Assembly: GCA_035544215.1 (NCBI GenBank)
Contig: DATKHY010000007.1
Coordinates: 868,001 to 932,000 of the forward strand
Reading direction: 5' to 3'
Origin: Candidatus Binatia bacterium
Lineage (GTDB): Bacteria > Vulcanimicrobiota > Vulcanimicrobiia > Vulcanimicrobiales > Vulcanimicrobiaceae
DNA: 64,000 nucleotides
Numbering within the stretch: the first letter of the stretch is position 1; every line of letters begins with the position of its first letter. The position numbers were made by a program, and so were the translations under genes. Of this stretch, positions 20,112 through 25,093 are shown piece after piece. Below the pieces are notes generated by a model. That model saw nothing but the letters and a program-made list of their open reading frames with translations. It searched no databases and was not told where the DNA came from.

Positions 20112-21287
20112 CTAACTGCAACCTATGAGGAAAGAATGAATCCTGGTCGCATCCAAGGCGTGGGTCAGGTCGGCGATCAAGTCGTCGGTCTCTTCGATGC
20201 CGACCGAGAGCCGCAGCAGGTCGTCGGTGATGTCCAGACTCGCGCGCTCATCCGGAGTCAGCGAGCCGTGGGTCATCGCCGCCGGGCTACAGATCAGCGA
20301 CTCCACGCCGCCGAGCGAGACGGCCAGGCCGAAGATCGCGGTCGACGTGGCAATCGCGCGCGCCCGCTCGGCGCCGCCGGCGGGACGGAACGCCACGATG
20401 CCGCCGAAGCCGCTCATCTGCCGCTTCGCCAGCTCGTGCTGCGGATGGCTGGCCAGGCCGGGGTAGTGAACCGCGAGCACGTCGTCGCGCGCGGCCAGAA
20501 ACTCCGCGATCGCCTGCGCGTTGCGGATGTGCGCGTGCATCCGCAAACTCAGCGTCTTGGCGCCGCGCAGCGTGAGGTACGCGTCCCACGGCCCCGGCAC
20601 CGCGCCGACGCAGTTCTGATGGAACGCGATGCGTTCCGCGATCGCGCTATCGCGCGTGACGACCGCGCCGCCGATCACGTCGCTGTGTCCGCCGATGTAT
20701 TTCGTCGTCGAGTGCACGACGAGATCGGCGCCCAGCGCGAGCGGCCGCTGGAGAAACGGCGAGGCGAACGTGTTGTCGACCGCGATCAGCGCGCCCGGCG
20801 AGCGCAGGCGCGCGATCGCCGCGATGTCGCACAGCTTCAGCGTCGGATTGCTCGGCGTCTCGAGCCACACGAGGCGCGTCGTGCTCCGCGCCGCGGCCCA
20901 CACCGCCTCGGGAACGGTCGTGTCGACGAACGTGACCTCGATCCCGTAGCGCGCCAGCACCTGGGTGAACAGACGATGCGTGCCGCCGTAGATGTCGCGC
21001 GTCGCGACGAGGTGATCGCCGCTGGATAGCAGCGACGTCGCGCCCGCGACGGCCGCCATGCCGGAGCCGAACGCGCTGGCGAACTCGCCCTCCTCCAGCG
21101 CTGCCAGTTGTCGCTCCATCGCGAGCCGCGTCGGATTGTTGGTGCGCGAGTAGTCGAAGCCATTGGTGACGCCGACCTTCGGCAACGTGAACGTTGCGGT
21201 CTGATATACGGGCACGATCGTCGCGCCGGTCGCGGGGCATGCGTCCTGACCGCTCCATACGGCGCGGGTGGTAAAGCCGTTTAACAT
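20112..21287 (-). CDS. metB: Cystathionine gamma-synthase / O-acetylhomoserine sulfhydrylase
   Basis: 391 residues, PLP-dependent Cys/Met metabolism family. YSRTNNPTRLAMERQLAALE, the cofactor-binding DNTFASPFLQRPL and VVHSTTKYIGGHSDVIGG with the Schiff-base Lys are all present. It condenses O-acetylhomoserine (made by the MetX upstream) with cysteine or sulfide. The sequence does not separate MetB from MetY or from a lyase with certainty; the ~390-residue length and context favour a cystathionine gamma-synthase-type enzyme. GGAG lies 8 nt before the ATG, which overlaps metX by 7 nt. Confidence 0.88.
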   Translation of the reverse strand: MLNGFTTRAVWSGQDACPATGATIVPVYQTATFTLPKVGVTNGFDYSRTNNPTRLAMERQLAALEEGEFASAFGSGMAAVAGATSLLSSGDHLVATRDIYGGTHRLFTQVLARYGIEVTFVDTTVPEAVWAAARSTTRLVWLETPSNPTLKLCDIAAIARLRSPGALIAVDNTFASPFLQRPLALGADLVVHSTTKYIGGHSDVIGGAVVTRDSAIAERIAFHQNCVGAVPGPWDAYLTLRGAKTLSLRMHAHIRNAQAIAEFLAARDDVLAVHYPGLASHPQHELAKRQMSGFGGIVAFRPAGGAERARAIATSTAIFGLAVSLGGVESLICSPAAMTHGSLTPDERASLDITDDLLRLSVGIEETDDLIADLTHALDATRIHSFLIGCS

Positions 21288-22255
21288 CGCGCGGGCTCCA
21301 GCGCGGCTGCGATAACCGGCTCCAAGAGCGCCCTCAGCGCCGCAGGCTCGGCCAGGAAGGCGTCGTGACCGTGGCCGGTGCGAAGCTCGAGGCATTGTGC
21401 GTCGCAGCCCGCGAGCACGCAGCGGCTCGCGGCCGCACGCACGTCCTGCGGGCGGAACAGCCAGTCGGAGCTGATTCCTGCGAAGATGAGCTTCGGCGTC
21501 TTCGCGCGCAGCAGCCCGCGCACGTCGAAGGAGTCCATCGCGTGCGTCAGCGCGGCGTAGCTGGCGCCGTCCATGCGCGCCTCGAACACGTCGGCTTGGC
21601 GTTCGAGATACCCCTCGACGTCGAACAGCGGCCGCCCCTTGCGATCCGGCCGGCGGTCGTGCCGCTCCTTCAGGAGTTCCTCGCTCTTGTACGTGAGCAT
21701 CGCGATCTTGCGCGCCAATCGAATGCCGCGCGCGGCGTCGAGCGCGATCGCCTCGCGCTGCAGCGCGTTTAGCGCCACGCCCATCGCGCTGTGATGGTCG
21801 TGCGCGCCGATCATGACGCAGGCACGCACGCGTTCGGGCGCCTCGACGGCCCACTGCAGCGCGCGCATGCCGCCCAGCGATCCGCCGATGACGACGGCGA
21901 TCCGCTCGATGCCGAGCGCGTCGAGCGCGCGGATCTCGGCGCGCACGATGTCGCGCACTGTGACGCGCGGAAAGTTGTCGAGCGTTGTGGGTCCGCTCGA
22001 TCCGTAACAACTTCCCAGCGCGTTGACGCCGACGACGAACCAATCCGCCGGATCAAACAGCCCGCCGTCGCCGACGACGCCCTGCCACCACTCCGCCGCG
22101 CGGCTCGATCCCGTCAGCGCGTGCTCGACCAGCACGACGTTCGATCCGTCGCCGCGGCGCGTGCCGTAGGTCGTGACCCGCTGTTGGACGTTTGCGAGCG
22201 TCTCGCCGCAGTCGAGGCGCAGCGCACCGAGCGCGACCGTCTCTTCGCGCATCAT
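21281..22255 (-). CDS. metX: Homoserine O-acetyltransferase MetX
   Basis: 324 residues of the alpha/beta-hydrolase fold that acetylates homoserine from acetyl-CoA. VVIGGSLGGMRALQWA is the nucleophile elbow (Ser), with GISSDWLFRP and TGHGHDAFL supplying Asp and His. It starts with an ATG overlapping the hom stop, so translation is coupled. At 324 residues it is somewhat shorter than typical MetX (about 370), with a compact lid. Acetyl versus succinyl preference is inferred from the family. Confidence 0.9.
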   Translation of the reverse strand: MMREETVALGALRLDCGETLANVQQRVTTYGTRRGDGSNVVLVEHALTGSSRAAEWWQGVVGDGGLFDPADWFVVGVNALGSCYGSSGPTTLDNFPRVTVRDIVRAEIRALDALGIERIAVVIGGSLGGMRALQWAVEAPERVRACVMIGAHDHHSAMGVALNALQREAIALDAARGIRLARKIAMLTYKSEELLKERHDRRPDRKGRPLFDVEGYLERQADVFEARMDGASYAALTHAMDSFDVRGLLRAKTPKLIFAGISSDWLFRPQDVRAAASRCVLAGCDAQCLELRTGHGHDAFLAEPAALRALLEPVIAAALEPARC

Positions 22256-23355
22256 GCGTGCGCCAGCGCGCGCTGCGGGTCGGATGCCGCGGCGCCGTCC
22301 CAAATCGGATAGGCGGAAAGCTCGGGGATACGCTCGAGGTGCTCGAACCACGGCCGAATTTCCAGCGCAGGCGCGAGCGAGGCGTCGCGCGGACGACACC
22401 CGCCGCGCAGCACGTCCACGACGTCGCCGAGCACGGCGGAGGCCGTCGCCGGACCTCCCGCCCCGGGGCCGCGCAGCAGGATGTGTTCTGCATCGCGCGC
22501 GACGACGGCGATCGCGTTTTCAGCATCTGCGGTTCGCGCCAAGTCGTCATCCCGCGGGATCAAGACAGGCGCAACCTCGGCAAGCATGCCGGAGTCGCTC
22601 TTGCGCGCGGCGGCCACGAGGCGGATGCGAAAGCCGAGCATCTGCGCGCGCGCCACGTCGCGCCGCGTCACCCCGGTGATTCCGGAGCGGCGGATGCGCG
22701 GCGAGATGACCGCGAAGCCGAACGCCACTTGCGCGATAATGGCCAGCTTGTGCGCCGCGTCGGTCCCATCGAGGTCGTTGGCGGGATCGGATTCGGCGTA
22801 GCCGAGACGCTGCGCGGTCGCCAGTGCGTCGCCGAACTCCGCGCCGCGCTCCATCGCTGAGAGGATCGACGTGCACGTTCCGTTGAGCACGCCCGTCACG
22901 GCGACGACGTCGTCGCCGGCGAGCGCCTCGTCCAGCGTGCGCAGGATGGGGATCGCGCCGCCCACCGCCGCCTCGAAGCGCAGCGCCGCACCGCGCGACG
23001 CCGCCAGTGCCCGCAGACGCGGGCCCTGCGTCCCGAGCAGATCCTTATTCGCCGTGACCACGTGACGGCCGCGCTGCAGCGCACGCTCGACCAGCCCGGC
23101 GGCGTCGTCCGTGCCGCCGATCAGCTCGACGACGAGGTCGACGTGGGGATCGTCCACGACCGAGCGGGCGCTGCGCGTGAAGAGCTGCCGATCTAATGAG
23201 CCGGGCCGCTCCTTGTGAGGATCGCGAATCGCGATCGCGCGCAGCTCGTAGCGAGCGCCGCTGCGACGTTCGATCTCATGGCGCTCGCGCTGCAGCCGGT
23301 CGGCGACGTTCGCGCCGACGGTGCCGCACCCGAGCAGCCCAATCCCGATGGTCAT
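22252..23355 (-). CDS. hom: Homoserine dehydrogenase without ACT domain
   Basis: 367 residues. The NAD(P) domain has IGLLGCGTVGANVADRL and VVTANKDLLG, and the catalytic domain has VLNGTCTSILSAM and GYAESDPANDLDGTDAAHKL. It reduces aspartate semialdehyde to homoserine. The usual C-terminal ACT domain that senses threonine is missing (family length about 430), so feedback control is probably not by threonine. As the first gene of hom-metX-metB it is dedicated to methionine, in line with the methionine-rich leader upstream. AGGAGG lies 11 nt before the ATG. Confidence 0.94.
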   Translation of the reverse strand: MTIGIGLLGCGTVGANVADRLQRERHEIERRSGARYELRAIAIRDPHKERPGSLDRQLFTRSARSVVDDPHVDLVVELIGGTDDAAGLVERALQRGRHVVTANKDLLGTQGPRLRALAASRGAALRFEAAVGGAIPILRTLDEALAGDDVVAVTGVLNGTCTSILSAMERGAEFGDALATAQRLGYAESDPANDLDGTDAAHKLAIIAQVAFGFAVISPRIRRSGITGVTRRDVARAQMLGFRIRLVAAARKSDSGMLAEVAPVLIPRDDDLARTADAENAIAVVARDAEHILLRGPGAGGPATASAVLGDVVDVLRGGCRPRDASLAPALEIRPWFEHLERIPELSAYPIWDGAAASDPQRALAHA

Positions 23356-23391
23356 TGTACTCCAGGCCTCCTGTTGCGATGGGAAAGCGCG

Positions 23392-23431
23392 GAAAAGATC
23401 GCGCCCCTCGTCGTATACGGCGAGGGGCGCG
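23392..23431 (-). terminator. Putative intrinsic terminator / attenuator before hom
   Basis: On the reverse strand an 11-bp perfect stem (CGCGCCCCTCG paired with CGAGGGGCGCG, loop of 10) is followed by ATCTTTTCC. It lies between the leader peptide stop and the hom Shine-Dalgarno, where an attenuator belongs. The T-tract is short but clear. A possible alternative pairing is 7 nt of the leader (23468-23474, TCGTCGT) with ACGACGA at 23408-23414 in the loop and 3' arm. Confidence 0.65.
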
Positions 23432-23465
23432 AGAAGCTGTGGTCCTTGAGTTACCTAAGAGCGCT

Positions 23466-23540
23466 TCACGACGACCCTGCCGCATGCATCATGCGCATGC
23501 AGCCCATCGAGAACATCGTGCGTCCGGCACTCAGCGACAT
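23466..23540 (-). CDS. Methionine-rich leader peptide of the hom-metX-metB operon
   Basis: 24-residue open frame MSLSAGRTMFSMGCMRMMHA, then AGSS and a TGA stop. Six of 24 codons are ATG and five of them lie in codons 9-18, including a tandem pair. A good sigma70-type promoter ends 7 nt before the ATG, so the transcript should start at or next to the AUG (leaderless translation). A terminator-like hairpin follows and hom begins 110 nt after the stop. The layout matches ribosome-mediated attenuation, with methionine shortage stalling the ribosome. The peptide is inferred; nothing here proves it is translated. Confidence 0.65.
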   Translation of the reverse strand: MSLSAGRTMFSMGCMRMMHAAGSS

Positions 23541-23547
23541 GGACGCA

Positions 23548-23576
23548 AAGATAGCACGAGCGCCGGGGCGAGTCAA
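23548..23576 (-). promoter_or_regulatory. Promoter of the methionine leader, TTGACT-17-TATCTT
   Basis: On the reverse strand TTGACT (23576-23571) and TATCTT (23553-23548) are separated by exactly 17 bp, and 7 nt later comes the leader ATG at 23540. The -35 box overlaps the end of the upstream permease gene, so the methionine operon has its own promoter just behind that gene. Confidence 0.6.
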
Positions 23577-25093
23577 CCCCGCCGTAAGGGGCGCGCGAGC
23601 GCGTCGTACACGGCGCCGATTGCCACGATCAGCGCCATCACGAGCAGCGTGACCCATCCGTAGTTGAAGATCGCGCGGCCGCTGCCGAGCGGGCTCGGCC
23701 AGACGATGTTGAGCAGCATCAGCGCGAGGTAGAGCGCGCCCGCCACCGTCACCGGCACGCCCCAGCGGCCCAGCGTGAAGGCTCCGCTCGGCTTCCATCC
23801 GCGGCGGCGCGCGACCAGCGCACCGGCGACCGTCAGCAGGAAGGCGAGGTAGATGCCCGACGTTGCGAAGGATACGAGCGCGTACAGCGCGTTGACGTTG
23901 GCCGGATAGTCGAACCACAGCATGTGCACCGGCTTACTGGGATTGATCAGCACGAGCAACAGAAACAAGAACGGAACGATCGTGCCGATCAGGATCGCGT
24001 TGGCGGGCGTGCGATGCCGCGCCGAGATGCGCCTGCACCAGTCGCTGCGCGGCAAGCCGCCATCGCGTGCCAGCGCGTAGACGACGCGTGCGCCGGCACC
24101 TTGCACGGCCGTGCCGCAGCTGAAGAACGCGACGATCACGAGCACCAGAAAGAAGTCTTGCAGCCAGGCCGGCAGCGTCGCGAACAGCGTGTTGATGCCG
24201 CCGCTGACGACGCCGCCGATCCCCGAAGCCGGCGTCGCGAGGAGCAGCCCGAGCACGAGCACGAACGACGCGATGCCTCCGTATAGGAGCGCGTTACGCA
24301 TCGCCTTCGGCACCTGGCGCTGCGCCTCGATGGTCTCCTCGGAGATGTCGCCGGCCGACTCGAAGCCGTAGAAGATGTAAACGTTGGCGAGCACGGCTAC
24401 CAGCGCGGCGGCGGTCCACCAGTTGCCGCCGAAGTTCAGGCCGAGCGGGTTGCTGCGCACGTACTCGACGTGCGCCGACGAAAAGATGAAGCCGAGATGC
24501 TGGTGGAATCCGAATGCCGCGAACACGAGGAACACGCCGAACGTGCCAAGCGTCTCCACGTACACGCCGTAGCGCGCCACGCGGCCCAGGATCTTCGCGC
24601 CGATCGAGTTCAGGATGGCCGACAGCACGATGATGCCGCCGGCAATGGCGAAGATCGTGGCGTGGTCGTCGGGCCGCAAATGCGTGCCGAACCAAATGTT
24701 CGAGATCGAGGTAACGTAGCCGACGGCGCCCGAATCGACCGACGCGACCGTGGCGAGCAGCGCGAAGCCGTAGATCCATCCGATGAACCAGCCGTAGCGA
24801 GGCCCGACGCTGTACTTGCCATACTGATACAGTGCGCCCGAGAGCGGATACTCGCTGGCGAGCTCGCCGAAGACGAGCGCGACGAGCAGCATGCAGCCGA
24901 CGACGATCGGCATCGTCCAGATGTAGCGCGGGCCGCCGCTCCCGAGCCCGAGCGTGTACAGCGAGTAGATGCCCACCATCGGGCTCAGGTAGCTGAACGC
25001 GACCGCGAAGTTATCAAACAGCGAGAGTACGCGCGCGAGCTCTTGGCGGTAGCCGAGCGCGCGCAGGCGGTCGTCGGCTAGTGGGCCGCCCAC
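23573..25093 (-). CDS. APC-superfamily amino acid permease
   Basis: About 506 residues with around twelve transmembrane segments. The N-terminal SLFDNFAVAFSYLSP and GSGGPRYIWTMPIVVG, and YIFYGFESAGDISEETIEAQ further on, match amino acid/choline/GABA-type permeases of the APC superfamily. It probably imports an amino acid or amine across the inner membrane. The start is uncertain: GTG at 25093 or 25099 fits the family N-terminus and overlaps the stop of the NTF2-like gene. Placement just upstream of the methionine operon may be coincidental, since that operon has its own promoter. Confidence 0.85.
   Translation of the reverse strand: MGGPLADDRLRALGYRQELARVLSLFDNFAVAFSYLSPMVGIYSLYTLGLGSGGPRYIWTMPIVVGCMLLVALVFGELASEYPLSGALYQYGKYSVGPRYGWFIGWIYGFALLATVASVDSGAVGYVTSISNIWFGTHLRPDDHATIFAIAGGIIVLSAILNSIGAKILGRVARYGVYVETLGTFGVFLVFAAFGFHQHLGFIFSSAHVEYVRSNPLGLNFGGNWWTAAALVAVLANVYIFYGFESAGDISEETIEAQRQVPKAMRNALLYGGIASFVLVLGLLLATPASGIGGVVSGGINTLFATLPAWLQDFFLVLVIVAFFSCGTAVQGAGARVVYALARDGGLPRSDWCRRISARHRTPANAILIGTIVPFLFLLLVLINPSKPVHMLWFDYPANVNALYALVSFATSGIYLAFLLTVAGALVARRRGWKPSGAFTLGRWGVPVTVAGALYLALMLLNIVWPSPLGSGRAIFNYGWVTLLVMALIVAIGAVYDALARPLRRG

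Follow-up and report, generated by a model that had tools for sequence, protein, structure and literature searches.

The minus strand between positions 23392 and 23576 of the window (the whole 64,000-nucleotide stretch of DNA analysed here) carries a sigma-70-type promoter, a leaderless ATG, a Met-rich reading frame and an intrinsic terminator, all located 5′ of a hom-metX-metB operon. The features of the locus are as follows.

23548..23576, minus strand: promoter TTGACT-17-TATCTT (-35 hexamer 23576-23571, 17-nt spacer, -10 hexamer 23553-23548)
23466..23540, minus strand: leader ORF MSLSAGRTMFSMGCMRMMHAAGSS and its stop codon, 24 codons, ATG at 23540, 7 nt past the -10 hexamer
23479..23503, minus strand: hairpin 1:2 (P1), GCUGCAUGC / GCAUGCGGC, over the late Met/Cys codons
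23463..23482, minus strand: antiterminator 5′ arm (segment 2), CGGCAGGGUCGUCGUGAAGC, comprising the end of the leader and its stop codon
23418..23437, minus strand: antiterminator 3′ arm (segment 3), GCUUCUCGCGCCCCUCGCCG, containing the terminator 5′ arm and the GCUUC preceding it
23393..23432, minus strand: intrinsic terminator (3:4), UCGCGCCCCUCGCCG-UAUA-CGACGAGGGGCGCGA followed by UCUUUU, supported by pairing and covariation
23360..23394, minus strand: Shine-Dalgarno-sequestering hairpin, core GCUUUC/GGAGGC, loop CCAUCGCAACA (23382-23372), supported by covariation
22252..23355, minus strand: hom, homoserine dehydrogenase, first gene of the operon (NCBIfam NF004976, 379 bits, cut-off 205)
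21281..22255, minus strand: metX, homoserine O-acetyltransferase type (best model PRK00175 / MetX, 276 bits, under the equivalog cut-off of 331)
20112..21287, minus strand: metB, cystathionine gamma-synthase type (PRK07811, 502 bits, slightly under the cut-off of 513)

Although metX and metB score below the strict equivalog cut-offs, there is very little doubt about the families to which they belong. The -35 hexamer overlaps the stop codon of an upstream amino acid permease gene (gene end 23573), and this promoter is the only sigma-70-like site found between 20000 and 27000 (7 kb), where 0.5 would be expected. The leader has six Met codons (codons 1, 9, 12, 15, 17 and 18) and a single Cys codon. 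For the window leader alone, five or more internal Met codons in 23 codons have a probability of 8e-5 at a Met frequency of 2%. That its transcript starts at the A of the ATG at 23540, making the frame leaderless, is an inference from the promoter spacing in the sequence.

The leader frame stays open upstream to a GTG (23466-23918, minus strand) and so extends into the end of the permease gene, which is read in a different frame; this extension is probably due to chance in GC-rich DNA. Read-through from the permease gene could conceivably yield transcripts that are not leaderless. Full-length genes with an ATG approximately 7 nt past a -10 box, for example sufC (loci L191, L192 and L194), are also found in the same genome, and leaderless translation is thus probably normal in the source genome.

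Conservation of the leader and its helices in relatives

Of the 99 family genomes searched, 70 yielded a hom homologue, and the lineage is Candidatus Eremiobacterota. The order promoter, ATG, Met-rich frame, stop codon, terminator and Shine-Dalgarno sequence is present before hom in about two dozen of these genomes (22-25), from the genus of the source genome and from many others, and hom is followed by metX and metB or metY. The promoter elements (TTGAC/TA...T) are conserved with a spacer of 17-18 nt. A promoter was recognised for 25 of the 26 hom leaders collected, and in 24 of those 25 the distance from the -10 box to the ATG is exactly 7 nt, from which a leaderless transcript start at the ATG is inferred.

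The peptides encoded by these leaders (for example MSRLASSMMMSSMCGMRMHVAGSS, MFLRADAMMPIMGRMCMHALGRS, MFTAVAMMCPMCCMQMHAAWAVVERTV and MFAPGRTSMMWLMSRMCCHPARVVAQR) are rich in Met. In 23 leaders, Met accounts for 107 of 587 internal in-frame codons (18%); the two remaining frames reach 1.8% and 0.2%. Alignment gaps within the frame are multiples of three in 106 of 107 cases, and the Met codons are kept while other leader positions drift. Most hom leaders also contain one to three Cys codons, in the pattern MMCxMCCM.

Pairing was evaluated in an alignment of hom leaders (A1) by the share of cells that pair, the changes on both sides of a pair, and 500 shuffles, and the alignment supports three helices: the terminator, the antiterminator and P1. 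The terminator stem (23432-23399 in the window) has 14 pairs with one mismatch and is followed by TCTTTT; 90% of cells are paired, both sides change in 10 of 13 pairs, and no shuffle did as well (0/500). The antiterminator of the window pairs CGGC-AGGG-CG-CG-GAAGC with GCUUC-CG-CG-CCCU-GCCG over 17 pairs, and in A1 it shows 74% of cells paired and changes on both sides in 11 of 17 pairs (0/500 shuffles). P1 is paired in 81.7% of cells; shuffling gives 77.8% (1/500 shuffles), sliding gives no more than 55%, and the mean folding z is -1.8. A conserved His codon (CAT), present in many leaders, belongs to P1. Since P1 and the antiterminator arm overlap at the start of the latter, the helices follow the classical 1:2 / 2:3 / 3:4 layout. 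RNAalifold applied to the whole leader reports the terminator only, because the antiterminator competes with it.

The terminator arms differ among genera (CGCG, ACGACG, AACG and CACACG), and it was consequently possible to examine by permutation how well each leader fits its own terminator. The cognate antiterminators of 19 representatives have a mean energy of -27.8 kcal/mol, compared with -22.8 kcal/mol for permuted partners (sd 0.7), and none of 100,000 permutations was as low. A control segment taken from these leaders gave no difference between cognate and permuted energies. The window antiterminator is not significant by itself (p 0.10); its support comes from the relatives.

The hypothesis of coincidence, in which a short frame arisen by chance and an unremarkable terminator happen to lie between the permease gene and hom, draws on the modest statistics of the window alone (p 8e-5 for the Met codons and 0.10 for the antiterminator). 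It is refuted by conservation and covariation across the family and can be all but excluded. Comparative conservation of the promoter, the start distance, the Met codons, the hairpins and the terminator in 22-25 relatives is the decisive evidence that the arrangement goes beyond chance.

A sequence-only reading of the window had described much of this anatomy. The promoter, the 7-nt distance to the ATG and the 24 codons with six Met held where they had been placed on the minus strand, as did the strong Shine-Dalgarno sequence before hom, which is additionally buried in a hairpin. The proposed 11-bp terminator hairpin held in part, the terminator being real and its stem longer. A proposed 7-bp antiterminator between TCGTCGT and ACGACGA failed: the match exists in the window, but the pairing is not conserved in relatives (the ACGACGA side is missing at L008 and L012, for example), and the conserved pairing of about 17 bp replaces it. 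Neither hairpin 1:2 in the Met codons nor the Shine-Dalgarno hairpin had been noted. The same reading had named alignment with related genomes as a check and a lack of conservation as a refutation; the Met-rich frame and the hairpins are conserved, so that refutation did not occur.

No second copy of the attenuator was found in the source genome, where weak model matches lie within coding frames or are lone hairpins. A model search outside the family returned one plausible relative, a CC/MM leader before hom-metX in G111; another match, in G102, sits inside a coding region and was set aside as chance. A search of viral contigs found no hom. Several nearly complete genomes of the same genus as the source genome (G004-G008, G013 and G014) have no hom match, and they may have lost homoserine-based synthesis.

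The Shine-Dalgarno hairpin before hom

Between the terminator and the hom start lies the hairpin GCUUUC-CCAUCGCAACA-GGAGGC, which hides a strong Shine-Dalgarno sequence (-9.9 kcal/mol in the window). Across 31 sequences (alignment A2), 97.8% of stem cells are paired, with covariation not matched in any of 500 shuffles, and the loop is near-invariant (consensus CCAUCNCAnCA). Compensatory stem changes include CUCUUC/GGAGAG before sulfite reductase and ACUUC/GGAGU in g35. The hairpin occurs approximately once per genome in the family and only before sulfur-related genes (hom, ssuA-like, cysH and sulfite reductase); it is absent from the thrC, ilvB, leuA, pheA and aroA leaders described below. In a scan of 84,980 species, plausible copies at gene starts were found only in Eremiobacterota or in loci of that type, and the other matches looked like chance, mostly lying within coding regions. 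Several Met leaders lack the hairpin (L076, L077 and metY loci). In two genomes, at L010/L060 (G011) and L039/L059 (G077), the leader and terminator are cleanly missing before hom and the promoter runs straight into the hairpin, which may reflect a natural loss of attenuation.

It could be argued that control is translational, with the Shine-Dalgarno hairpin as the main sensor (a small-molecule or protein site) and the leader and terminator merely tuning supply. In favor of this explanation, the stem covaries, the loop is near-invariant, the element is confined to sulfur operons, and genomes that have lost the leader and terminator retain it. However, it leaves the conserved Met codons, terminator and antiterminator unexplained, and there are Met leaders without the hairpin; we regard it as unlikely. 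The hairpin may act as a sensor that controls translation, as a binding site for a protein, or merely as a means of tuning translation.

Leader peptides across the family and the amino acid presumably sensed

Leaders of this Met-rich design stand before three distinct kinds of methionine operon in the family, those of hom, metY and metB (L164). The same leaderless design is found with poly-Thr before thrC (L157, L161, L162, L165 and L167), Val/Leu/Ile before ilvB (L169, L170, L180, L185 and L190), Leu before leuA (L188), Phe/Tyr before pheA (L172, L175 and L184) and Phe/Trp/Tyr before aroA (L159 and L176-L179). Leader-peptide attenuators for Thr, Val/Leu/Ile, Leu, Phe/Tyr and the aromatic amino acids are thus predicted family-wide, mostly with leaderless spacing, and this set in Eremiobacterota has probably not been described before. 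Cys-rich leaderless leaders with some Met are found before genes for an ssuA-like binding protein, cysH and sulfite reductase (L015, L036, L041-L044, L156, L168, L171 and L183). The mean number of internal Met codons is 4.65 in hom leaders, 3.33 in metY/metB leaders, 2.50 in cys/ssu leaders and 0.38 in leaders for other amino acids.

Most leaders contain Cys codons alongside Met, and a joint Cys/Met response is therefore not excluded. In a rival explanation, cysteine is the main signal, or acts jointly with methionine, via the accompanying Cys codons. Consistent with it are the one to three Cys codons of most hom leaders and their MMCxMCCM pattern, the Cys-rich leaders with some Met before ssuA-like, cysH and sulfite reductase genes, and a CC leader before hom-metY-metX in genus g11. 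Against it, the window leader has one Cys codon versus six Met codons, internal Met is more frequent in hom than in cys/ssu leaders (4.65 vs 2.50, p 7e-5), and the Cys codons of hom leaders lie partly within hairpin 1:2 and are hence constrained by pairing. We judge cysteine improbable as the main or joint signal.

The leader before hom is not uniform in the family. In genus g37 (L097-L106), hom has Thr/Ile leaders and sits outside a met operon; the loci of genus g11 are L079-L088; over these loci together with L112 and L113, hom leaders are Thr/Ile, Cys or mixed Met/Thr/Ile. As hom carries Thr/Ile, Cys or mixed leaders across genera, the amino acid that is sensed seems to have changed during evolution. 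Copper binding by an MxxM/CxxCC-like peptide was also considered and was dropped, since the neighboring genes serve the synthesis of sulfur amino acids and the supply of sulfur.

A further possibility is an unrecognised SAM or methionine riboswitch to which the Met-rich frame is incidental. Methionine genes are often controlled by riboswitches, and the region folds more stably than shuffled sequences (z -2.1). Yet the window has no Rfam match, sequence variation respects the codons of the leader (gaps come in threes, and Met codons persist while other positions drift), and analogous Thr, Leu and Phe leaders precede their matching operons; this explanation is very unlikely. SAM riboswitches, the T-box and MetJ share the target of the proposed attenuator, methionine biosynthesis, and neither a SAM-I riboswitch nor a T-box was detected in the 99 family genomes, although the controls were positive.

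A proposed methionine attenuator and its precedents

The locus is best interpreted as a ribosome-mediated transcription attenuator that would sense charged tRNA-Met before hom-metX-metB. We hold this to be very likely on comparative and computational evidence; translation of the leader and the response to methionine are inferred, there being no transcript, ribosome or expression data. The attenuator criteria fulfilled in the sequence are a Met-enriched leader ORF, an intrinsic terminator before hom, P1 over the regulatory codons and a downstream operon that makes methionine, the amino acid of the leader codons. An antiterminator that excludes the terminator, and that a ribosome on the stop codon would mask, is supported by structure and covariation, without biochemical observation.

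In this view, transcription would start at the A of the leader ATG and a ribosome would initiate on the 5′-terminal AUG without a Shine-Dalgarno sequence, both of these steps being inferred. When Met-tRNA is scarce, the ribosome would stall at Met codons 9-18 and cover segment 1, blocking hairpin 1:2 and leaving segment 2 (CGGCAGGGUCGUCGUGAAGC) free for segment 3 (GCUUCUCGCGCCCCUCGCCG). The resulting antiterminator (2:3) would keep the terminator 5′ arm occupied until the polymerase is past, and hom-metX-metB would be transcribed. When Met-tRNA is plentiful, the ribosome would reach the stop codon within segment 2 and mask that segment, and the terminator (3:4) would form. The Cys codons of most leaders may contribute cysteine sensing, and the separate hairpin over the hom Shine-Dalgarno sequence may supply translational control. 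What the sequences demonstrate is the anatomy and the fact that it is conserved, whereas the dependence on methionine, the position of the 5′ end and the kinetic competition are inferred.

Equilibrium folding of complete transcripts favors the terminator at nearly every ribosome position, and the switch must consequently be kinetic and decided during transcription. Kinetic switching is usual for attenuators, and by analogy the same is inferred here. In a co-transcriptional model, the RNA downstream of the ribosome was folded in a transcript ending before the terminator 3′ arm. Averaged over 24 leaders, the model predicts that a ribosome at the Met codons leaves 78% of the nucleotides of the terminator 5′ arm engaged by the leader, and a ribosome at the stop codon 3%; in nearly every species the drop follows directly on the last Met codons. 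For a ribosome-free transcript the predicted engagement is 62%, such that an untranslated leader would antiterminate in part. The model is a simple equilibrium treatment of a kinetic process and serves only as a consistency check.

The sequence-only reading had proposed a leaderless Met-codon attenuator before hom-metX-metB and had called it unusual. The core of the proposal held, with the methionine response still inferred, and is strongly supported by comparative data because the Met codons are conserved, 24 of 25 leaders have the 7-nt spacing, the terminator covaries, and the antiterminator covaries over the leader stop codon. The unusualness holds for biosynthetic operons in the literature searched, although a leaderless metL before metNIQ was already predicted in 2021 (PMC8079986).

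Ribosome-mediated attenuation is textbook knowledge for several amino acids, and the tRNA system of methionine also serves initiation. With the classical attenuators (trp, his, leu, thr, phe and ilv leaders) the hom leader shares a peptide rich in the regulated amino acid, the 1:2 / 2:3 / 3:4 hairpins, an intrinsic terminator and a stop codon within the antiterminator arm. It differs in its regulatory codon, the single codon for Met, which is also the start codon, in a start inferred to be leaderless, without a Shine-Dalgarno sequence, and in its occurrence in the phylum Eremiobacterota.

Before the metNIQ methionine genes of Streptomyces lividans, the metL leader is likewise predicted as a short leaderless frame that contains Met (and Cys) codons (PMC8079986). 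However, it is a single-species prediction without a clear Rho-independent terminator, concerns an import system rather than biosynthesis, and was given no comparative support (PMC8079986). In mycobacteria, leaderless polycysteine frames act as attenuators (Shell 2015, PMC4633059; Canestrari 2020, cited in PMC9031893). Like the hom leader, whose leaderless start is inferred from the conserved 7-nt promoter spacing, these are small ORFs before sulfur genes; their translation speed depends on a sulfur amino acid, as would that of the hom leader. They have contiguous Cys codons and no conserved terminator hairpins (PMC1262725) and are described as controlling downstream translation, whereas the leader studied here has Met codons and a conserved terminator and antiterminator, and no run of Cys codons is present in the window leader (one Cys, six Met). 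For Actinobacteria, a survey reported that methionine operons lack any preceding RNA element, and it gave S-box riboswitches as the RNA control used elsewhere (PMC1262725). Neither a Met-codon attenuator for methionine synthesis nor any attenuator from Eremiobacterota is described in the literature searched, which did not cover most subscription journals, and metL, one tentative leader prediction, is the sole methionine precedent within that literature.

A bolder interpretation, which can be offered only as a possibility and as one joint claim, is that two stacked RNA switches serve sulfur amino acid synthesis in Eremiobacterota: a leaderless Met (or Met/Cys) attenuator and a sulfur-specific Shine-Dalgarno hairpin with a metabolite or a protein as the ligand of its invariant CCAUCNCAnCA loop. 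The lineage would then rely on leaderless leader peptides as its general mode of attenuating amino acid operons, replacing riboswitches and T-boxes.

The full, conserved and covarying anatomy found in this largely uncultured phylum makes the use of Met codons as attenuator sensors testable, together with the coupling of a leaderless start to the switch. In Eremiobacterota, a little-known phylum of soil bacteria, the hom genes of a single family carry Met, Cys or Thr/Ile leaders depending on the operon, and they form a natural series for the change of amino acid in an attenuator.
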